From Croceivirga thetidis (GTDB taxonomy: Bacteria; Bacteroidota; Bacteroidia; Flavobacteriales; Flavobacteriaceae), in the NCBI RefSeq assembly GCF_012272815.1, contig NZ_JAAWWL010000002.1, forward strand, positions 1,456,280 through 1,520,279: a stretch of 64,000 bases of DNA. Direction: 5' to 3'. Shown here in pieces: positions 34,149 to 47,291 of this stretch. The notes below the pieces were generated by a model that did no database searches, was not told the DNA's origin, and worked only from the letters and a program-made list of their open reading frames with translations. Made by a program: the position numbers and the translations under genes. The number at the start of each line of letters is the position of its first letter. Within the stretch, counting starts at the first letter, position 1.

Positions 34149-37100
34149 ATGCGTCTGCTACTTTTTACAATCCTTTCTTTTCTATTTGTTCAAAATTTAC
34201 GTTCACAAGAAGAGCTACCAAAAATTGATTATAAAGAGGTTTCCGCTAAAGCAGAAAAATTCGTTGAGAGTGGAGAATATCAAAAAGTAATTGATGAACT
34301 GAACAAAATCAATCCAAACGACAGTATTTATGCCGATGCGCTTTTATCTAAATCCTTTTATGCCCTTCAATTAAAAGATTATCCATTGGCAATGCAATAT
34401 GCTGAGGAAGGTTTGGCCCTGCCATTTGGAGAAAACAAAGAAGCTTTTTATCAGAATTATGGGGTCGCCCTTATTAATAACGAATCCTACGAAGAGGCTA
34501 TATCTAGCTTTAATTCGGCTTTACTCGAATTTCCTAAAAATTACAAACTAAGGTATAATCTAGGGGTCGCACATGAGTACTCAGGAGATATAAAAAATGC
34601 GGTTCTGGCATACGAGGAGTCAATCTTTCTTAATCCACTTTACAAAAAACCGTATTCCCAACTTGGTGGGCTATGCGCCAAAAACGGATTGGTTTCCCAA
34701 GCATTGTTATGTTACAATATGTACTTGCTGGTTAGCCCAGAAGGTTCCTTTAGTTCTTTAAAATACATCAACGATTTTGCTTCGGCCCCAACTGAAATTG
34801 AAAATAAACTTGAAGGGGGCATTTCAAATATTGATGGTGAATTTGAAGAACTTGATTTGATATTATCAAGTGGTCTTGCCTTAAATAATGATTACGAAAC
34901 GGGAAATAAAATAGAAATAGCGCTTGTAAAACAAAACCATGCATTACTAAATCAAATTTCGGAAGTTACTGTAGAGAATGGGTTTTGGGGTGATAAAGTA
35001 ATTCCATTGTTCAAATGGATAAATGATAACGGTTATTTCGATTTATTCACCTATACCATCAATTATGATATCCAAAATGAGAAATTCAAAGCTATTATTG
35101 AAAAAAACGAAGAAGAAATAGTTGAATTCTATAATGCTTTCAAAAAAAAATGGATAGAACTCAATCAAGATTATTTGAATAAAACTGGGAATAACAAAAT
35201 TATAGTAAATGGGTACTTTGATGAATACTTTCAAGGAATTGGAAAACTTGAAAATGAAAAATTAGTTGGCCAATGGGAATTTTATAATGAAAATGGGAGT
35301 GTAAAAAGCAAAGGGGAATTTGATAGTTCTGGGCAACGCATAAATAATTGGACTTGGTTTAATGCAGATGGTAGTATAAATGAAACTTCAACTTATGTAA
35401 ATGGCAATCTTGAAGGTCCAAATAAGGGCTACTACCCCAATGGAAAACCAATGTTCGAAGCAACTTATCAAGATGACGATTTGAATGGCCACTACTCCTA
35501 TTTTAATAATAAAGGTGCCCAAACACAATCAAAGTATTTCAAAAATGGTGTGCTTGATGGAATGTATGAGTCTTACTTCCCGGTTGGTTCAAAAATTAAG
35601 GAATACCAGATTCCATATTCTGATGGTAAAATCGAAGGAGAAGTAACGCAGTATTTTATAACCGGTGATACCTTATTGAATGTAAATTTCAAAGCTGGAA
35701 AACGTCACGGAATTGAAACTAGTTACTTCATCACAGGGAATAAAAGTGGTATCTCAAAATATAGTGAGGGTGAACTGAACGGTCCTTACTTGGTGTATTA
35801 TCCGAACGGACAAATAAAATCAGAAGGGAACACCAAAAGCGATTATTACGAAGGCCCGTACACTGAATACTATTCAAATGGTAATCTCAAATCAAGTTAT
35901 AACTACGACGAAGGTGTTATAAATGGGCTGTACAAAGTCTATGATCGTGATGGCAAATTACATTACGAATATGAGTATCGAAAAAATGAAGTAATCGCTT
36001 ATACCTTTTTTGATAAAGACGGTAATATCATTAAAGAAGCCCGTAAAAAAGGAGGTGAATTCTTTTATGAAGAATATTCTCCTTTTGGAGTCAAAATGAC
36101 GGAAGGACTTTATGATATTAAAGGCGGTAAAATTGGAGAATGGAAATACTACAGTAATAATGGGGTTCTCAGCGCCACCTGTACGTACAAGGACAATCTA
36201 CTTGACGGAAAATACACTTCCTATCATAGCTCTGGTGAATTACTTTCAATTTCTCATTATTCAGAAAACGTAATTGACGGGTATTACAAAGAGTTTTATC
36301 CGAATGGGCAATTATACATGCAAGGATGGTATAAGAACGGAAAGGAATTTGGTGAATGGAGGTTCTATTACAAAGACGGCACTATGTACTCAAAGAATTT
36401 TTACCATAAGGGCCAATTACATGGTAACCAGGTATATTTTGGAGTTGAGGGCCAACCTAGTTCAACGAATACCTACAGGTTTGGCGAGCTAATAAAGCAG
36501 GTTTATTTTAAATCAAACGGCCAAGTTTTACAAGAAATTGACCACAACGCTTTTCCAGCAGATACCACATTGGTGTTCTATTATGAAAACAAAGAACCCC
36601 AAATAAGAACAACATACTCTTACGGTGTTCAAAACGGCCCATTTATGTATTTGGATTTCTATGGAAATACATTGCAAAAAGGCAACTATCTAAATGGTGA
36701 AAAACATGGGGAGTGGATTACTTTTCATGAAAATGGTCAAGTCTTGAATAAGACGAACTATCTAAATGGAAAAGAACATGGAGATTACGAACGATTTAAT
36801 GATGATGGCATTCTGCAAGAGGAAGGTATTTATAATCTCGGTGAATTATCTGGCGAATGGAAAACTTACGACAAAAAGGGACGCTTATCCTACACCAATA
36901 ATTACAGTATGGGATTACTTCACGGTACTCGAAAATTTTATGATGGCCCTGATAATCTAGAATTAATTCGTCATTATGAATACGACCGTGTTATAGGCTA
37001 TAGCTATCTAGATTCCAATGGTACGGAAATTGCAATGGTTCCATTGAAAAACGAGACAGGCAATGTGACCTCGTATTTTCAAAATGGTAAAATTTCTAGG

Positions 37101-37436
37101 GAAATGACCTATAAAAATGGAGTCTTCGATGGTAAATACCTTGACTATTATCCAACAGGCCAAATGGAGTCGGATATTAACTATAAGTACGGGAAATACC
37201 ATGGTAAACGCACACAGTTTTTCGAAAATGGGAATTTAGAGTTGGAAGAGGTCTATCTAATGGACGATTTGCACGGCCCCTATAAAGCCTATTATCAAAA
37301 TGGAAAACTAAAAGAAGAAGGCAATTATAAGAACGGCAGTAAAACAGGTGTATGGCGATACTATGATGAATCTGAAAAAAAATCCAAAGAAGAAACTTAT
37401 TTTAATGGTGCTGTTGTGACTTCTAAGCAATTTTAA
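34149..37436 (+). CDS. large secreted TPR + MORN-repeat (YwqK-like) protein
   Basis: 1095 aa from ATG 34149, which starts a signal peptide (LLLFTILSFLFVQNLRSQ); the in-frame ATG at 34110 gives none. Residues about 25-230 hold TPR repeats (YADALLSKSFYALQLKDYPL, EEAISSFNSALLEFPKN, KNAVLAYEESIFLNP). From about 345 to the end there are some thirty repeats of the MORN/YwqK type, about 23 residues each, with the core (D/E)Gxxxx(Y/F)xxxGxxxxxxxYxxGxxxG. MORN sheets often bind membranes or serve as scaffolds. Two bases separate its stop from the transglutaminase gene. Family-level function unknown. Confidence 0.85.
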   Translation: MRLLLFTILSFLFVQNLRSQEELPKIDYKEVSAKAEKFVESGEYQKVIDELNKINPNDSIYADALLSKSFYALQLKDYPLAMQYAEEGLALPFGENKEAFYQNYGVALINNESYEEAISSFNSALLEFPKNYKLRYNLGVAHEYSGDIKNAVLAYEESIFLNPLYKKPYSQLGGLCAKNGLVSQALLCYNMYLLVSPEGSFSSLKYINDFASAPTEIENKLEGGISNIDGEFEELDLILSSGLALNNDYETGNKIEIALVKQNHALLNQISEVTVENGFWGDKVIPLFKWINDNGYFDLFTYTINYDIQNEKFKAIIEKNEEEIVEFYNAFKKKWIELNQDYLNKTGNNKIIVNGYFDEYFQGIGKLENEKLVGQWEFYNENGSVKSKGEFDSSGQRINNWTWFNADGSINETSTYVNGNLEGPNKGYYPNGKPMFEATYQDDDLNGHYSYFNNKGAQTQSKYFKNGVLDGMYESYFPVGSKIKEYQIPYSDGKIEGEVTQYFITGDTLLNVNFKAGKRHGIETSYFITGNKSGISKYSEGELNGPYLVYYPNGQIKSEGNTKSDYYEGPYTEYYSNGNLKSSYNYDEGVINGLYKVYDRDGKLHYEYEYRKNEVIAYTFFDKDGNIIKEARKKGGEFFYEEYSPFGVKMTEGLYDIKGGKIGEWKYYSNNGVLSATCTYKDNLLDGKYTSYHSSGELLSISHYSENVIDGYYKEFYPNGQLYMQGWYKNGKEFGEWRFYYKDGTMYSKNFYHKGQLHGNQVYFGVEGQPSSTNTYRFGELIKQVYFKSNGQVLQEIDHNAFPADTTLVFYYENKEPQIRTTYSYGVQNGPFMYLDFYGNTLQKGNYLNGEKHGEWITFHENGQVLNKTNYLNGKEHGDYERFNDDGILQEEGIYNLGELSGEWKTYDKKGRLSYTNNYSMGLLHGTRKFYDGPDNLELIRHYEYDRVIGYSYLDSNGTEIAMVPLKNETGNVTSYFQNGKISREMTYKNGVFDGKYLDYYPTGQMESDINYKYGKYHGKRTQFFENGNLELEEVYLMDDLHGPYKAYYQNGKLKEEGNYKNGSKTGVWRYYDESEKKSKEETYFNGAVVTSKQF

Positions 37437-37438
37437 GA

Positions 37439-39361
37439 ATGAAGAAAAATCTATTGACCATACTTTTTTTAGGCTTGGTTTTTGGGCTTAACGCCCAGCA
37501 ACTTGAACAGCTAAATCGATTACAAGAAACCTATCCGAATGCCAATCGCATTCGTGTGAACCAAGAAGAGGTTATCACACTAGAAATTGTAGATGGAGAA
37601 ATAAAGGTTGACCAAACAACAATTGAAGAAGAACTTTACCTGAGTAAAAGTGCAACCTACAATTCAAAGCAATCCATAAATTATTCGAGTTTCTTCCATT
37701 TGAAACAGATAGAAGCCAAAAACACCAACTGGATAAACGGAAAGCCACAGTCAGTTAAGGTAGAGGATTTTAAGGTTAAAGACGATTTGGAATCTTCTTT
37801 TTACGATGATAACAAGACGGTAAATTTTATATATCCGAACTTAGAAAAAGGGTCAAAAACGTATTTGAAATATTCATATGATATTAAAAATCCCAGGTTT
37901 TTGAGTTCTTTCTATTTTGGCAGCTATCTCCCGATTACCAATAGTAAACTTAAGCTCATTGTTGACAACGGTATCGAATTAAGTTTCAAAAGTTTCAACC
38001 TTGAAGGACTGGATATTAAGTTTGAAAAGGAGAAAAAACGAAAACAAACAATCTATACTTGGACCAGCTCAAGTGTTCCGGATTATAAATTCGAAGAGAA
38101 TTCGCCAAACGGTCGCACAATTCTGCCACATGTAATCCCTGTTATAACGTCATTTACAGTCGACGGTAAAACAACCAAACTTGCTGATTCTGTTGATGAC
38201 TTATACAAGTGGTATTTTTCTCTAACAGAAGAAGTGCGTTCTGAAAAACCTTCACCAGAACTCGTTAGCACCGTTAAGGAAATCACTAAAAACTGTACAA
38301 GCGACTATGAAAAGGTGAGCGCAATTTACGAATGGGTCCAACGAAATATAAAGTACATCGCTTTTGAATATGCTCTGGGCGGTTTTGTTCCAAGATTCGC
38401 CAACGATGTTTTTGCAAAGAAATACGGAGATTGTAAAGACAATAGCAGTTTACTGTACGCAATGCTTAAAATTGCTGGCCTTAAGGGGTATTTTACTTGG
38501 ATAGGCACCAGAGATTTGCCCTATTCATACAGTGATTTACCCACTCCACTGTCCGATAACCATATGATATTAACTTGGAAGAATGGTGCTAATACATACT
38601 TTCTAGATGCCACGGGCAGGTATGCAAATTTGATGCAACCAACTTCTTTTATTCAAGGTAAGGAAGCCTTAATAGGCATAGATTCAAATGAATTTTTAAT
38701 TGAAACCGTGCCCCTATTGCCTGCAACATCCAATGCTATAGTTGACAAGTCTTCTGTTACCTTAAATGGAAACAATCTTGAAGGTAGTTCTAATGCAATA
38801 GTGACCGGCTTTCAAAAAGTCAATTGCTTCTACGGTTTAGAGAACATGACTACAGAAGAGAAAACCTTAAGCTATTTTAATAGCCTGTTGGAAAAAGGAA
38901 ACAACAGCTTTCTAATTTCAAAGTTTCAAGTCACGAATGAATTCGATTACTATGAACCCTTTGAAATAGCTTACGATTTTGAAATTAAAAATGCCGTTAA
39001 TCATTATGGGAATGAAACTTACGTCAATCTCAATTTAAATCAAGATCTCTACAAATTTGCAACCAAAAGGAATAGAAAGAATGCTTTGGAGTTTGACTAT
39101 TTGGAAAAAAAACAATTTCAAACCGAATTTATCATTCCTGAAGAATACAAGATTGATTACTTGCCTTCAAATTTCGCCCTAGATAACGAGTTTTTTAACT
39201 CTTCAATAGCTTACGAAGTTGAAAATGGAAAGATTAAATACACCCATCAATTCGAGCTTAAAAAAATAATCATTCCTGCAGAATCCCTAAAAGAATACAA
39301 TGACAATCTAAACAAGGTAAATAAGGCCTTTCAAGAAGTTATTGTTTTAGTAGAAGATTAA
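37439..39361 (+). CDS. secreted DUF3857 / transglutaminase-like protein, intact triad
   Basis: 640 aa with signal peptide (1-20, LFLGLVFGLNAQ). The DUF3857 beta-domain covers about 40-235. The transglutaminase-like domain has YGDCKDNSSLLYAML with Cys332, DNHMI with His375 and FLDATG with Asp390, a complete papain-like triad. A C-terminal beta region (DUF2569-type tail absent) runs from 440. Such proteins are taken to be cysteine peptidases or crosslinkers of envelope proteins. It is the second gene of the operon, with stop/start gaps of 2 and 6 bases. Confidence 0.87.
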   Translation: MKKNLLTILFLGLVFGLNAQQLEQLNRLQETYPNANRIRVNQEEVITLEIVDGEIKVDQTTIEEELYLSKSATYNSKQSINYSSFFHLKQIEAKNTNWINGKPQSVKVEDFKVKDDLESSFYDDNKTVNFIYPNLEKGSKTYLKYSYDIKNPRFLSSFYFGSYLPITNSKLKLIVDNGIELSFKSFNLEGLDIKFEKEKKRKQTIYTWTSSSVPDYKFEENSPNGRTILPHVIPVITSFTVDGKTTKLADSVDDLYKWYFSLTEEVRSEKPSPELVSTVKEITKNCTSDYEKVSAIYEWVQRNIKYIAFEYALGGFVPRFANDVFAKKYGDCKDNSSLLYAMLKIAGLKGYFTWIGTRDLPYSYSDLPTPLSDNHMILTWKNGANTYFLDATGRYANLMQPTSFIQGKEALIGIDSNEFLIETVPLLPATSNAIVDKSSVTLNGNNLEGSSNAIVTGFQKVNCFYGLENMTTEEKTLSYFNSLLEKGNNSFLISKFQVTNEFDYYEPFEIAYDFEIKNAVNHYGNETYVNLNLNQDLYKFATKRNRKNALEFDYLEKKQFQTEFIIPEEYKIDYLPSNFALDNEFFNSSIAYEVENGKIKYTHQFELKKIIIPAESLKEYNDNLNKVNKAFQEVIVLVED

Positions 39362-39367
39362 AAAGAC

Positions 39368-41335
39368 ATGAAAAATAAAGCCATCCTACTTATTAGTTTT
39401 CTGTGTATTGCATTTAATGCCCCAGCACAAGAAATACTGCAAATATTATCGTATGACTGGGCCAGTAAACCCGTTTACGAAAAACCTTCAGGTGATTTTG
39501 ACATTTTTGGCATTAAGGAAAAACAACTGATATACTTTGATTATGAAGGAGGTGATTTAACCGAACATTATCTTGAACACAAGGTAGTTTGGTTGAATTC
39601 CGATGAAAAAATTGAAGAGTACAACAAAGTTTATTTGCCCTACGCAGATGGCTCTAATCTAAAGGTGAGCAAAGCCCGTGTAATCACTCCCAACAATTCA
39701 ATAATTGACCTGGATAAGACCAAAATTTTTACCTCAAAAGATGAAGAAACTGGTCAGCAATATAAATACTTTGCTTTTGAGGGTTTAGAAAAGGGAAGTT
39801 TTATTGAGTATTTGTATGTCGCCCAACAAAAACCCGATTACAACGGAACCCGAATCAAGCTACAATCAACTTATCCAAAAAAAGAAGTTGATTTTGAACT
39901 GGTGAGCCCTAAAAATCTATTATTTGCTTCTAAAAGTTTTAATGGTTTACCGGAGGCCAATAGAGATAGTTTACCCAACGGAAATAACAGATGGAATTTA
40001 AAGGTCGAAAATATGGATGGTCTTGAAAAAGAGGATCAGTCGGCACACTCGGCCTATTTGGGTCAAATCATCTATAAGCTGGATTCGAACACTGCTACAA
40101 AAGGAAAAAATTTAACCTCTTACGCCAATGTTTCCCAGAATTTATATGCCTTTTATTACAAGGATATTGATAAGAAAGTTGATGGTCTTCTTGATAAATT
40201 CATTAAAGAAAATAACTTGGCAAATGGAGAAAACGAAGATGCTACTTTAAGTATGCTTGACAACTATCTTAAGACCACTATTTTTCTAACTGAAGGTAAT
40301 GACCCTGGTTTGAGCAACACGATTTCAATTTTGGAAAATAAAGTCGCTAATCGCCGTGGTATTGTTCAATTGTACGTTCAATTGTTCTCAAAATTGGGAA
40401 TAAAGAATGAAATGGTGTTGACCTCAGACCGCAACAATGTAAAGTTCGACCCCGAATTTGAATCCTATAGTTTTTTGAATAATTTTCTCTTTTACTTTCC
40501 AAACACCAAGAAATTCCTTGCTCCAAATGTTCAAGAAAACAGATATGGTTTTCCTCCAATTGAGTTTACCGACAATTATGGTTTATTCATTAAAGAAGTC
40601 AAGTTGGGCAGTAATAAATCCGCCATTGGAAAAATAAAATATATTGATGCTGTTGAGGCAGAATTAAATGTTGATGTAATGGACATTAAAGTATCATTTG
40701 ATGAAAATGATATTACCAAAACCAATATTCAACTTAATCGAAGTTTCTCAGGTTACAATGCCATGTATTTTCAGCCTTTTATGAATCTGATGCCCAAGGA
40801 AACAAAAGAAGAGCTGGTTGATCAGTTTGCCAAGACCATGCATGAGGATATACAAATTATTTCAAAAGATATTCAAAACGGTGAACCAGAATCGTTTGGT
40901 AAAAAGCCAATAGTTTTTTCCTATGAAATAGAAGCCGATGTATTCATGGAAAAAGCTGGTAGAAAACACTTGTTTAAATTGGGTGACCTCATCGGGCCTC
41001 AAATTGAAATGTACCAAGATAAAAAACGCAAATTACCCCTTGAAAGTCAGTATGAACGTACATACTATCGAAATATCACCATAGAAATACCTAAGGGCTA
41101 TAAGGTTGTAAACCCAGAAGATATAACTATCGATTATAAAATTGAAAAAGATGGAGAGTTGCTCTTCTTTTTTGATTCAAGCTATACGCTAAAGGATAAT
41201 CTTTTGAGTATCAAGGCAGATGAGCAATACAATACAAATATTGTTTATCCTGAAATCTTAGAGGGTTACCGTCAAGTTATTAATGGTGCTGCAGATTTTA
41301 ATAAGATAAAGCTGATTTTTGAACAGGAACAATAG
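39368..41335 (+). CDS. secreted DUF3857 protein with a degenerate transglutaminase domain
   Basis: 655 aa, signal peptide about 1-20 (ISFLCIAFNAPAQ). It parallels the upstream gene: a DUF3857 region about 45-250 and a transglutaminase-fold region about 290-400. There the Cys segment reads NRRGIVQLYVQLFSKLGI, where the neighbour has GDCKDNSSLLYAML; the His position reads LNNFLFYF and the Asp position FLAPN. All three catalytic residues are absent, so it is likely a non-catalytic partner. A C-terminal beta region follows. Last gene of the operon. Confidence 0.82.
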   Translation: MKNKAILLISFLCIAFNAPAQEILQILSYDWASKPVYEKPSGDFDIFGIKEKQLIYFDYEGGDLTEHYLEHKVVWLNSDEKIEEYNKVYLPYADGSNLKVSKARVITPNNSIIDLDKTKIFTSKDEETGQQYKYFAFEGLEKGSFIEYLYVAQQKPDYNGTRIKLQSTYPKKEVDFELVSPKNLLFASKSFNGLPEANRDSLPNGNNRWNLKVENMDGLEKEDQSAHSAYLGQIIYKLDSNTATKGKNLTSYANVSQNLYAFYYKDIDKKVDGLLDKFIKENNLANGENEDATLSMLDNYLKTTIFLTEGNDPGLSNTISILENKVANRRGIVQLYVQLFSKLGIKNEMVLTSDRNNVKFDPEFESYSFLNNFLFYFPNTKKFLAPNVQENRYGFPPIEFTDNYGLFIKEVKLGSNKSAIGKIKYIDAVEAELNVDVMDIKVSFDENDITKTNIQLNRSFSGYNAMYFQPFMNLMPKETKEELVDQFAKTMHEDIQIISKDIQNGEPESFGKKPIVFSYEIEADVFMEKAGRKHLFKLGDLIGPQIEMYQDKKRKLPLESQYERTYYRNITIEIPKGYKVVNPEDITIDYKIEKDGELLFFFDSSYTLKDNLLSIKADEQYNTNIVYPEILEGYRQVINGAADFNKIKLIFEQEQ

Positions 41336-43804: not shown

Positions 43805-45955
43805 ATGTCAAAAAAGAAAAAATCCATCAAGGAGCTGGGTAACTATTCTAAAGTTTATGCCAAGCTCCGCATGATTGCCAATGGCAGTAATGAGGTCAAT
43901 GCAATACGATCCATAACCAATCAATGTATCGCCGTAAGGGATACAATTCTTAAACCGGAAGCCTATAAAAATGTGACCAATCAAATGGCACAGAATATTT
44001 CTTTGGCACCCGAAACGGAAATTTCTATCGACGAACTCTCCCCCAAAGTAAAAGAGCCCACGAGAACCCAACTTAAAAAGGGTAGCATTGATGACAACCC
44101 TCCAAATGCCATTCAAGCCAATGTGTATATCGAACTTAAATCCAGTAGCAGTTGGAATGATGTCCTTAATGATCTTAAAAAAAATAAAGAGAAAAGCGAT
44201 TTTAAGTCACACATTACCAACGTCCGACAACTCGGAAATACGGTAAAAGCGACCATCATTCTTGATTATTTAAAAGTTTTGGCCAGCAGTGAGCATATTG
44301 TGGGTATAGAGGGTACCCAATCGATATTGACACCACCATTGACCTTGGCCCCAACCGCGACCAGTTTGAAACCTAAAAAATTTACCTTTGATCAAGAGCT
44401 GCCCAAATTCGACCATAGCAATGTTATCATTGGTATTATTGACGTTGGAGGATTTGATTACGCACATCCCGACTTTCTTGACGCTCAAGGAAAAACCCGT
44501 TTTCTGGCCATTTGGGACCAGGGTGGTGACCATAGACCTTCACCGAAAAAGTCCTTAAATGGTTTTGAGGGTATGGATTATGGGAGCTTACTTTTAAAGG
44601 AACATATGGACCAAGCTATCAATGATGCACCAAACATTGGTGTACCCGTAAAAGCATTGGAACCGCAATCACAAGAATTTGAATCCTCACATGCTACGCA
44701 TGTGGCCAGTATTGCTGCAGGAAATTCAGGAGTTTGTTCCGAGGCCGATATTTTAGGTGTGCTTATTTCTTTGCCTCCAGTGGATAACGACCGAGCCAAA
44801 TCGTTTACCGATTCTTCACGAATTTCCGATGCAGTGGATTTTTTATTGGAGTATGCCAAAGAACAGAGTAAACCCATTTCAATAAATATCAGTCTCGGTA
44901 CCAATGGCCATGCACATGACGGTAGTGCAGGCGTAAGCCGCTGGATTGATAATCAATTGACTGTTGATGGCCGTTGCGTATGTGTTGCCGCAGGTAATGC
45001 CGGACAGGAAAAGGGTTTGACACCTGATGATTTTGGGTACATCATGGGCCGAATCCATACCTCGGGAAAGATTTCGAACAAAGGGCTTTCCATTGATTTG
45101 GAATGGCAGGTTATCGGTAATGGCATCAGTGACATTTCTGAAAACGAGCTCGAGATTTGGTATGAACCCCAAGACCGTTTTTCAATTATGGTCAAACCAC
45201 CAGGTGAGGACTGGATAGGTCCTATTAAACCGCAACAGTTTATTGAAAACCAACAGCTGGATGATTTTTCGTTTCTCAGCGTTTACAACAAGATTTATCA
45301 CGAGGCGAACGGCAACAATTATATTGCGGTTTATTTGAGCCCCAACCTCAACCCCCAAAAAGTGGTAGGCATCAAATCAGGATTATGGAAGGTACGTTTG
45401 ATAGGCGATGAAATTCGAGATGGCAATTTTGATGCTTGGATAGAACGGGACGACCCAGTACGCCGAGTTCAAAATTTTTGGAGTTTCCCTTCCTTTTTTA
45501 CCGAGAAAACCAATGTCGACAACAAATCAATTAACTCCTTGGCCTGTGGACATAACGTCATCGCCGTTGGAAACTTTGATACCAACAATGACCTTATCAA
45601 TATTACGAGCAGTCAAGGTCCATCTCGAGATAACCGGAAAAAACCAGAAATAGTTGGTCCTGGCACTAATATTGTCGCTGCAAACGGCTTTGCAGGTAGT
45701 AATAACTTATGGACGGCGAAAACAGGCACCAGCATGGCGAGTCCTTACGTTTGCGGAGTTGCTGGACTTTTATTGGCGCTACAACCGAGATTAACCTCAT
45801 CACAAATAGCAGGAATTTTAAAACGAACTGCTTCACCAATTACGGGATTGAATTACGATTGGAAAAACGATACCGGTTTTGGACTCATAAATAGCGAAGC
45901 CTGTATTCAAGAGGCCATGCTATTAGCGAATTTCGAAGACATTACAGCAAACTAA
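43805..45955 (+). CDS. cytoplasmic subtilisin-like serine protease (S8)
   Basis: 716 aa without signal peptide or membrane segment, hence probably cytoplasmic, which is unusual for S8 enzymes. Residues 1-200 form an N-terminal domain not recognised. The protease has Asp213 (GIIDVGGFDYAHPDF), His296 (SSHATHVASIA), oxyanion Asn398 (VAAGNAG) and Ser643 (KTGTSMASPYVCGVAG), all intact, with a beta insertion about 410-550 before the Ser motif. Ten bases separate its stop from the MBL gene. A role in regulated proteolysis within this three-gene cassette is inference. Confidence 0.9.
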   Translation: MSKKKKSIKELGNYSKVYAKLRMIANGSNEVNAIRSITNQCIAVRDTILKPEAYKNVTNQMAQNISLAPETEISIDELSPKVKEPTRTQLKKGSIDDNPPNAIQANVYIELKSSSSWNDVLNDLKKNKEKSDFKSHITNVRQLGNTVKATIILDYLKVLASSEHIVGIEGTQSILTPPLTLAPTATSLKPKKFTFDQELPKFDHSNVIIGIIDVGGFDYAHPDFLDAQGKTRFLAIWDQGGDHRPSPKKSLNGFEGMDYGSLLLKEHMDQAINDAPNIGVPVKALEPQSQEFESSHATHVASIAAGNSGVCSEADILGVLISLPPVDNDRAKSFTDSSRISDAVDFLLEYAKEQSKPISINISLGTNGHAHDGSAGVSRWIDNQLTVDGRCVCVAAGNAGQEKGLTPDDFGYIMGRIHTSGKISNKGLSIDLEWQVIGNGISDISENELEIWYEPQDRFSIMVKPPGEDWIGPIKPQQFIENQQLDDFSFLSVYNKIYHEANGNNYIAVYLSPNLNPQKVVGIKSGLWKVRLIGDEIRDGNFDAWIERDDPVRRVQNFWSFPSFFTEKTNVDNKSINSLACGHNVIAVGNFDTNNDLINITSSQGPSRDNRKKPEIVGPGTNIVAANGFAGSNNLWTAKTGTSMASPYVCGVAGLLLALQPRLTSSQIAGILKRTASPITGLNYDWKNDTGFGLINSEACIQEAMLLANFEDITAN

Positions 45956-45965
45956 ACACCTAACT

Positions 45966-47291
45966 ATGCAACTTATCATATTTCGTTCTTCAAAAGGAGA
46001 TTCACTGCTCATCTCAAACCCAATTGGTGATGGGAAAAACACCAATATTTTGGTCGATGGTGGTATGAAGTCAAGTTTCAACGCATCAGTGGCACCCTAT
46101 CTGAACAAAGAGATACAACAAAAAGGGGAAGTAGTCGACCTATTATGTGTTTCCCATATTGATGACGACCATATTGTGGGCATTATTGCGCTTATGGAAT
46201 TATTGACCGAATGGCGGGTGTACAACCACCATAAAAGCAACCCGAATTCCACGGCCAATGTCAAAAAACCAAAGATTGTTGAACCACCAACTATCAACTC
46301 TATTTGGCATAACTCTTTTGCAGAGGCTTATGATTTGGGGGAATCCCTTCCACAAATTGCAAACGCCTTGCAAAATGTAGAGCAAATGACCTCAGAACAT
46401 TTGAAAAATGACCTTTTTCATCGAGTGAGTCATAAGGCAACAAGCATCAAGAAGGGCATCATATTATCCCAACGCATTGACCCAGACCAATTGAATATTC
46501 CTTTAAACCCAGAATACAATGGTCGTGTGGTCAAATGCAACCAACGTACCGTTAGTAAAAACGAACATGCAGTCGGTAATATCAACCTTTCGGTCATCGG
46601 CCCGTTTCAAGCAGACCTGACTGACCTAAAGGAAAAATGGGAGAAATGGGAAAAGGCCCATGCCGAAGAACTTAAAGAATTTTTCGCCGATTTGAGCGTG
46701 AGTGCTATCAACCAACCTTTAAGTTTGGAGCAGCTTTCGCAGCTATTAATTAATAGTGGCACCCTGGGTGATCGAGATGAAGTCTCCATACCCAACTTGG
46801 CCTCCATCATGTTTTTAGCAGAGGCTGACGGGTCAACTATTCTAATGACAGGTGATGGCCATTCTGATGACATTTTAAAAGGACTCGCCAAGAACGAAAA
46901 ACTGAATGCCAATGGTGGGCTGCATGTGAATGTGCTTAAGGTACAGCACCATGGGGCCGAGGCTAATATCGATTTAGCATTTTGTAAAAAAATTACAGCT
47001 GACCATTATGTGTTTTGCGGTAATGGTACCCATCATAACCCTGAAGAAGCGGTTTTGGAAGTCATTTACAAATCACGGGCCGGTGAAGCCAATGAAAAAA
47101 GTCCAAACCCAGAAGTGGAACAACCTTTTACCTTTTGGTTTAATGCCAACCCCAAAGACTCTCTAACGGAAAATCAGGAAAAACACCTTAAAAAGATTGA
47201 AAAATTAGTCAAGGAATTTAAGGAGGACCACGCCAATTTTCATTTTAAGTTTATGCCCAAGAATGAGCATTTTATGGTGATTGGGGTTTAG
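45966..47291 (+). CDS. ComEC/Rec2-like metallo-beta-lactamase-fold hydrolase
   Basis: 441 aa, cytoplasmic. Ferric/zinc-site motifs of the MBL fold: N-terminal strand DGG at 31-33, HIDDDH at 64-69 (HxDxDH form as in ComEC), then TGDGHSDD, VLKVQHHGAEANID and FCGNGTHHNPEE. A helical insertion (about 170-270) separates the two halves of the fold. It lacks the membrane domains of ComEC. Such soluble MBLs occur as effectors or regulators in predicted conflict systems, but the substrate (nucleic acid, nucleotide or other) is not known. Last gene of the cassette. Confidence 0.85.
   Translation: MQLIIFRSSKGDSLLISNPIGDGKNTNILVDGGMKSSFNASVAPYLNKEIQQKGEVVDLLCVSHIDDDHIVGIIALMELLTEWRVYNHHKSNPNSTANVKKPKIVEPPTINSIWHNSFAEAYDLGESLPQIANALQNVEQMTSEHLKNDLFHRVSHKATSIKKGIILSQRIDPDQLNIPLNPEYNGRVVKCNQRTVSKNEHAVGNINLSVIGPFQADLTDLKEKWEKWEKAHAEELKEFFADLSVSAINQPLSLEQLSQLLINSGTLGDRDEVSIPNLASIMFLAEADGSTILMTGDGHSDDILKGLAKNEKLNANGGLHVNVLKVQHHGAEANIDLAFCKKITADHYVFCGNGTHHNPEEAVLEVIYKSRAGEANEKSPNPEVEQPFTFWFNANPKDSLTENQEKHLKKIEKLVKEFKEDHANFHFKFMPKNEHFMVIGV

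Follow-up and report, generated by a model that had tools for sequence, protein, structure and literature searches.

A 64,000-nt window of the Croceivirga thetidis genome (contig NZ_JAAWWL010000002.1, positions 1,456,280 to 1,520,279; "the window" denotes this whole stretch) encodes on its + strand three consecutive genes, here termed P1, P2 and P3, for a tetratricopeptide repeat (TPR) and MORN repeat protein, a transglutaminase-like enzyme and a catalytically dead paralogue of that enzyme. Many Bacteroidia carry this trio. Our best reading, held with slightly better than even confidence, is that the window contains one representative of an old three-gene system distributed throughout the class. 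To a similar, modest degree we favor the view that its products are a periplasmic cysteine-type enzyme, a dedicated pseudoenzyme and a scaffold of fixed length. In the mechanism we propose, P3 would be a pseudoenzyme derived from an old P2 paralogue and held by strong selection, most likely pairing with P2 or with P2's substrate via its DUF3857 and C-terminal domains, while P1 would be an exported TPR and MORN scaffold of near-fixed length, holding the two in position or linking them to another partner. The three proteins would, on this view, associate physically.

Conservation of the trio

Full-length P1 (>600 bits), P2 (>500 bits) and P3 (>500 bits) were detected in the same 12 of 149 genomes of our family sample, which holds one genome per genus; in one of these (G016), P1–P2 and P3 lie on two contigs. 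The order P1–P2–P3 is found in 72 of the 80 named loci retrieved with P3 (including L145, with broken P1 and P2 frames), the remaining ones being six P2–P3 loci (one of them, L138, at a contig end) and two that have just P3 (one of them, L131, also at a contig end). Six unnamed family loci are identical in DNA to named ones, so the two locus sets are not independent. A search with P1 at E 1e-50 matched 38 of 246 other genomes when run on the class sample; in the order sample, 7 of 195 other genomes had a match. Among 40 wider loci fetched with P1, 32 show P1 followed by an active and then a dead copy, representing 21 family codes including that of the window; two (L229, L264) are cut by contig ends, and in L234 P1 and P2 stand together with P3 elsewhere in the same genome. 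Hence the trio, whose conservation the original prediction had put up for checking, is not specific to this strain.

Within three genes on either side of the 72 trio loci, no gene family is shared by more than 9 of them, and flanking genes yielded no recurrent functional clue. These variable surroundings, the identical presence sets in 149 genomes and a gene order that is the same in 21 families at 21–40% P1 identity make it very improbable that the three genes are functionally unrelated and together through shared transcription and inheritance only, even though they do separate in some lineages and a phenotype is not known.

Locus architecture and predicted export

A sequence check reproduced the coordinates and frames of the original prediction and both of its gap sizes—2 bases from the P1 stop to the P2 start and 6 bases between P2 and P3—although it had spoken of three gaps where only two exist. 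The features of the locus are as follows.

34149..37436, + strand: P1, 1095 residues, TPR and MORN_2 protein (start ATG at 34149)
34149..34205, + strand: putative P1 N-terminal export signal, residues 1–19, with Gln at 20 (sequence; Gln20 in 52/52 rows)
34230..35168, + strand: P1 helical TPR-type part, residues 28–340 (Pfam, AlphaFold2 model)
35169..37430, + strand: P1 MORN beta-sheet part, residues 341–1094 (Pfam, model, alignments)
37439..39361, + strand: P2, 640 residues, DUF3857 and transglutaminase-like enzyme (open reading frame (ORF), Pfam)
37646..38080, + strand: P2 DUF3857 domain, residues 70–214 (Pfam)
38270..38623, + strand: P2 transglutaminase-like core, residues 278–395 (Pfam match 278–348, extended to hold the triad)
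38432–38434, 38561–38563 and 38606–38608, + strand: P2 triad codons for Cys332, His375 and Asp390 (alignment)
39368..41335, + strand: P3, 655 residues, DUF3857 and catalytically dead transglutaminase-like protein (ORF, Pfam, model, alignment)
39575..40015, + strand: P3 DUF3857 domain, residues 70–216 (Pfam)
40115..40567, + strand: P3 dead transglutaminase-like domain, about residues 250–400 (alignment, model)
40352–40354, 40481–40483 and 40520–40522, + strand: P3 triad equivalents R329 (Cys), N372 (His) and A385 (Asp) (alignment)

An alternative TTG start for P1 at 34110 would add 13 residues ahead of the signal segment. A DUF3857 search of the genome returned two matches, P2 and P3, and no third gene. 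A promoter scan returned 34 sites (28.8 in shuffled sequence, standard deviation 5.7) and a terminator scan 3 (4.9 in shuffled sequence).

Each protein begins with a hydrophobic segment, followed at the inferred +1 position by Gln in 52/52 P1, 51/54 P2 and 53/63 P3 rows of our alignments; these are samples, made of the window protein plus 51 of 71 P1, 53 of 75 P2 and 62 of 80 P3 frames from the named loci. Gln at +1 corresponds to the Q-rule described for Bacteroidetes (PMC5837995). The three proteins are thus predicted to be exported, as had been proposed, and would reach the periplasm. Beyond residue 30, P3 lacks strongly hydrophobic stretches, the highest hydropathy of any 19-residue window there being 0.71, below the threshold of 1.6.

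An intact enzyme and its dead twin

P2 matches the Pfam families DUF3857 (56.2 bits, cut-off 24.6) and Transglut_core (38.3 bits, cut-off 23), with an additional sub-threshold match to DUF3858. The complete Cys332-His375-Asp390 triad noted originally is invariant, all three residues being identical in 54/54 aligned rows. As a member of the DUF3857/transglutaminase-like family, P2 is best read as a putative cysteine-type enzyme acting on amide bonds, be it a peptidase, an amidase or a transamidase. Its sole solved relative found by sequence is 3kd4, and this match is weak (E 0.00088).

P3 matches DUF3857 only in Pfam. Its AlphaFold2 model (mean predicted local distance difference test score, pLDDT, 91.5) aligns over residues 43–653 with 3kd4 (Z 19.7, root-mean-square deviation (rmsd) 4.2, 477 residues aligned to a target of 505, 13% identity). 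Further matches are those of residues 250–429 to the XPC chain of 8ebv (8ebv_H; Z 10.4, rmsd 3.3, 147 aligned), of residues 266–418 to the transglutaminase 4xz7 (Z 9.0), and, at Z about 9, of the DUF3857 part to a portion of M1 aminopeptidases, alongside other proteins such as 4g2a (Z 10.7). As Z values around 9–10 are middling, it is the 3kd4 match that carries weight.

The P3 model therefore bears out the claim that P3 has the same DUF3857/transglutaminase layout, and the alignment the claim that it lacks the catalytic residues: at the positions aligned to Cys, His and Asp of P2, the window protein has R329, N372 (aligned with His375) and A385. Nor has the triad moved. The sole Cys of window P3 is residue 13, in the signal segment, so that the mature chain contains none and a relocated Cys triad is impossible; in the P3 alignment, no column has Cys in more than 20 of 63 rows. 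The Cys position is Glu in 39/63 rows and never Cys; the His position, never His, is occupied by Asp (41 rows), Glu (19) or Asn (3); and the Asp position is Ser in 41 and Ala in 15, with Asp retained in 2. In the 32 wider trios, the dead copy likewise never has Cys in the catalytic column, and His occupies the His column in two (L249, L261; quick alignment). That acidic residues so often replace Cys and His suggests a remodelled pocket rather than random decay. Some dead twins in other loci (L172, L181, L182, L185, L160, L212) have Ser for Cys and keep His and Asp; these may possess serine-type activity.

For P2, a peptidase would appear at least as likely as a crosslinker, since 3kd4 is titled a putative protease and the DUF3857 part of the P3 model shows the middling resemblance to M1 aminopeptidases noted above. 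In one alternative, the picture of the original prediction, P2 would be a genuine transglutaminase whose role is to crosslink proteins of the envelope; the repeat protein P1 would serve as substrate and P3 would regulate the reaction. The Transglut_core match and a P1 MORN part that is repetitive and Lys-rich (8.9%) speak for it; yet only three Gln columns of this part are conserved in at least 80% of 52 rows, the one solved relative found by sequence bears a protease title, the P3 model has its M1 resemblance (middling, and beside other matches such as 4g2a), and the superfamily is described as holding proteases, N-acetyltransferases and phytochelatin synthases alongside transglutaminases (PMC4866520). 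We regard this crosslinker scheme as decidedly unlikely.

Selection on the pair

For 19 non-overlapping close pairs from 71 trio loci, the median ratio of non-synonymous to synonymous substitution rates (dN/dS) was 0.081 for P2 and 0.085 for P3, each over the 17 pairs that remained once two with undefined dS were set aside, and 0.142 for P1 over all 19. These values are rough because many dS lie near or above 1. By this measure, P3 is not decaying, and selection on it is about as strong as on P2. Within P2, conservation peaks in the catalytic core (0.82; DUF3857, 0.66; C-terminal part, 0.58), and P3 displays the reverse, with its minimum in the former catalytic domain (0.58; DUF3857, 0.67; C-terminal part, 0.65). 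In P3, conservation has thus shifted away from the catalytic domain and into those on either side of it.

Enzyme and dead-twin pairs across Bacteroidota

In family and phylum loci, active copies with C-H-D or C-H-E adjoin one or two copies without the Cys. A total of 67/68 active copies stand beside a dead one (the 68th is cut by a contig end), a count that is biased because the loci came from P3 matches or were partly picked for two close matches; 11 further clusters consist of dead copies only. A fairer family set, composed of the next 20 unseen P2-type matches by rank minus three at contig ends, has a dead twin adjoining the enzyme in 17/18 uncut loci. Enzyme/dead-twin pairs of several types recur across Bacteroidota. 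Pairing is not universal, lone enzymes being present in the family (L202) and outside it (L209, L210, L214, L215, L216, L218, L219), and three lone dead copies were found also. 

A tree of 63 rows splits 33 dead and 30 active rows by one branch (96/89); rows for the trees, as for the mirror-tree comparison below, were chosen by type from the loci already retrieved. The alternative that groups A, B and C enzymes with their own dead twins was not rejected (approximately unbiased test, p-AU 0.211), and a tree enlarged by the seven lone enzymes plus ten more rows did not fix the deep order. A single origin of all dead twins is therefore not claimed, only that the two large dead clades are old.

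Several loci show other arrangements. In one genome, a P2–P3 pair is directly followed by a full P1–P2–P3 set (L043:6012-17283). A search of a plasmid collection gave two matches to P3. On a plasmid of Persicobacter sp. JZB09 (L269:5891-9740), an active-type protein and a second DUF3857 protein stand in tandem, and no P1 match was found in that stretch. Plasmid pAT1 of Aureibacter tunicatorum (L270:7983-8546) encodes a short hypothetical protein (188-residue frame) that matches only the P3 C-terminal part (residues 478–653, 34.6%), so this domain may also exist alone.

A MORN-repeat protein of nearly fixed length

P1 matches MORN_2 (E 1.1e-51; 167.1 bits vs. a cut-off of 29.6), with 10 stretches passing singly, and TPR_2 (E 1.7e-06). 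Its AlphaFold2 model (mean pLDDT 90.2) consists of helices from residue 28 to 340, then 62 strands forming 31 pairs over residues 350–1094, in good agreement with the "about thirty" MORN-like repeats after a TPR region given in the original prediction. The MORN part of the window protein (residues 350–1094, 745 residues) corresponds to 739–748 residues in 52 close rows. Among 39 wider frames with 21–40% identity to window P1, the segment equivalent to residues 350–1085 (736 residues) measures 731–742 residues in 32 and 749–762 in seven, the latter having about 13–26 extra residues, i.e. up to one repeat. Repeat number thus hardly varies across the class, and length is nearly fixed.

The original prediction had offered P1 as a substrate or a scaffold. 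The three conserved Gln columns lend the former little support, and the near-constant length is more in keeping with a putative scaffold.

Foldseek ranked large Rhs/teneurin beta-repeat structures highest for the P1 model, at very low template modelling (TM) scores. By electron microscopy, a dimer of TbMORN1(2-15), with about 28 repeats, is reported to be about 25 nm long (PMC7725318). The 31 repeats of P1 would by that scale span ~28 nm if straight. Such a length is comparable to the width of the periplasm. P1 might then be a periplasm-scale strut or ruler carrying an enzyme/pseudoenzyme pair that cuts or joins envelope peptide bonds, and the trio a new machine sensing or setting envelope spacing in Bacteroidia; this is a speculative extension, and an unlikely one.

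Other readings of the locus, as adhesin, type IX cargo or defence system, found no support in NCBIfam or PADLOC. P1 scores 117.9 bits against the LIC20035-family adhesin model (NF033566), vs. an NCBIfam cut-off of 250. A C-terminal sorting domain model is absent from the matches of P1, P2 and P3 (to E 0.1) in NCBIfam, a library that holds such models, and for known anti-phage defence the three have no PADLOC-DB 2.0.0 match at E 0.001.

Separation and loss of members

Several observations weigh against the three-part reading. P2–P3 pairs without P1 are common in the family (12 loci: L044–L053, L055, L058); in L047, the one tested by Pfam, the pair has an AMP-binding gene on one side and a MenC gene on the other, which we read as housekeeping surroundings rather than a functional clue. 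In the complement set from outside the family (L209–L228, drawn from previously unfetched phylum matches, of which not every remaining one was taken), 7 of 16 enzyme clusters have no adjoining dead twin and 9 are paired; L211, with long frames present, received no active/dead assignment in that comparison. P3 occurs without P2 in three genomes (G055, G136 and G149), and P1 alone in five (L235, L238, L240, L250, L260), with P2 and P3 not found anywhere in them. In favor of a P2–P3 partnership, distances among enzymes and among dead twins correlate strongly (r 0.967 in 29 chosen loci; 0/2000 shuffles as high), although plain vertical inheritance of neighbors would also be expected to produce this.

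Loci of one family have a TerB/DnaJ-domain gene after the trio (L249) or directly after the lone P1 (L238) (Pfam; L250 and L260 look alike by eye), so a clean loss or gain of the P2–P3 pair seems to have taken place in them.

The losses bear on whether P3 might instead be the core of the set: a binding protein to which P2 and P1 are add-ons, P2 processing or loading the ligand of P3 and P3 not regulating P2. Full-length P3 is present in 28 family genomes, 26 of which have P2, the others being G055 and G136; conversely, 27 of 28 family genomes with A/B-type P2 have P3, the exception (G066) being cut at a contig end. G149 (L142) has the neighboring genes in place with P1 and P2 missing, and L107 retains P3 as one open frame (its detected ORF starts about 40 residues late) next to a 159-residue MORN remnant of P1 and a P2 broken in two frames. 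Yet the independent losses are few, two of them are in incomplete assemblies (G055 and G136; 1.4–1.5 Mb, 84–86% complete), and because P1 is the survivor in five other genomes, no single loss order holds everywhere. We consider P3 as the core rather unlikely, if the foremost of the alternatives.

From the persistence of P3 in genomes that lack P2, we judge it probable that P3 does more than regulate P2, although the cases are few. Of the regulated active/inactive pair proposed originally, a lasting partnership is supported by neighborhood, selection and co-divergence, whereas the three genomes that have P3 but no P2, and the five that have P1 but neither of the others, speak against simple regulation of the live twin by the dead one.

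Apart from the trio, the window holds at 43805–47291 a subtilase-family gene and, 10 bases after it, a gene of metallo-beta-lactamase fold with matches to the PADLOC models LmuA (E 1.4e-49), RTasMBL and Avs1a; the two are a candidate defence pair.

Comparison with known systems

MORN1 of trypanosomes and apicomplexans (PMC7725318) shares with P1 an extended MORN beta sheet and is among its Foldseek matches, but is eukaryotic and has about 15 repeats, its solved pieces spanning about 200 residues of P1. A dead transglutaminase from another bacterium, whose disruption is reported to raise vesicle production, resembles P3 in being catalytically dead; it has a different architecture and is annotated with seven transmembrane helices in its description (PMC12096838), whereas P3 lacks such helices, carries DUF3857 and adjoins an active paralogue.

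BDI_1141 of Parabacteroides distasonis (PDB 3kd4), a protein of DUF3857/transglutaminase type, has its fold in common with P3 and a weak sequence match to P2; it differs in being titled 'putative protease'. The transglutaminase-like domain of Rad4/XPC, which P3 model residues 250–429 match, is inactive and used for binding, but belongs to a nuclear DNA-repair protein without DUF3857.

No published description of the P1–P2–P3 set was found in open-access full texts, a search mostly outside subscription papers and without the MORN and transglutaminase pairing as a query; DUF3857 itself came up in a single paper. Enzyme/pseudoenzyme pairs are known elsewhere; here, the pseudoenzyme recurs across Bacteroidota beside an intact paralogue, and the trio adds a protein of ~31 MORN repeats and almost frozen length. 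If it works as a unit, a major phylum would have in the trio a periplasmic system that is so far undescribed. Genomes that retain P3 alone or P1 alone make the logic of the set open to genetics.

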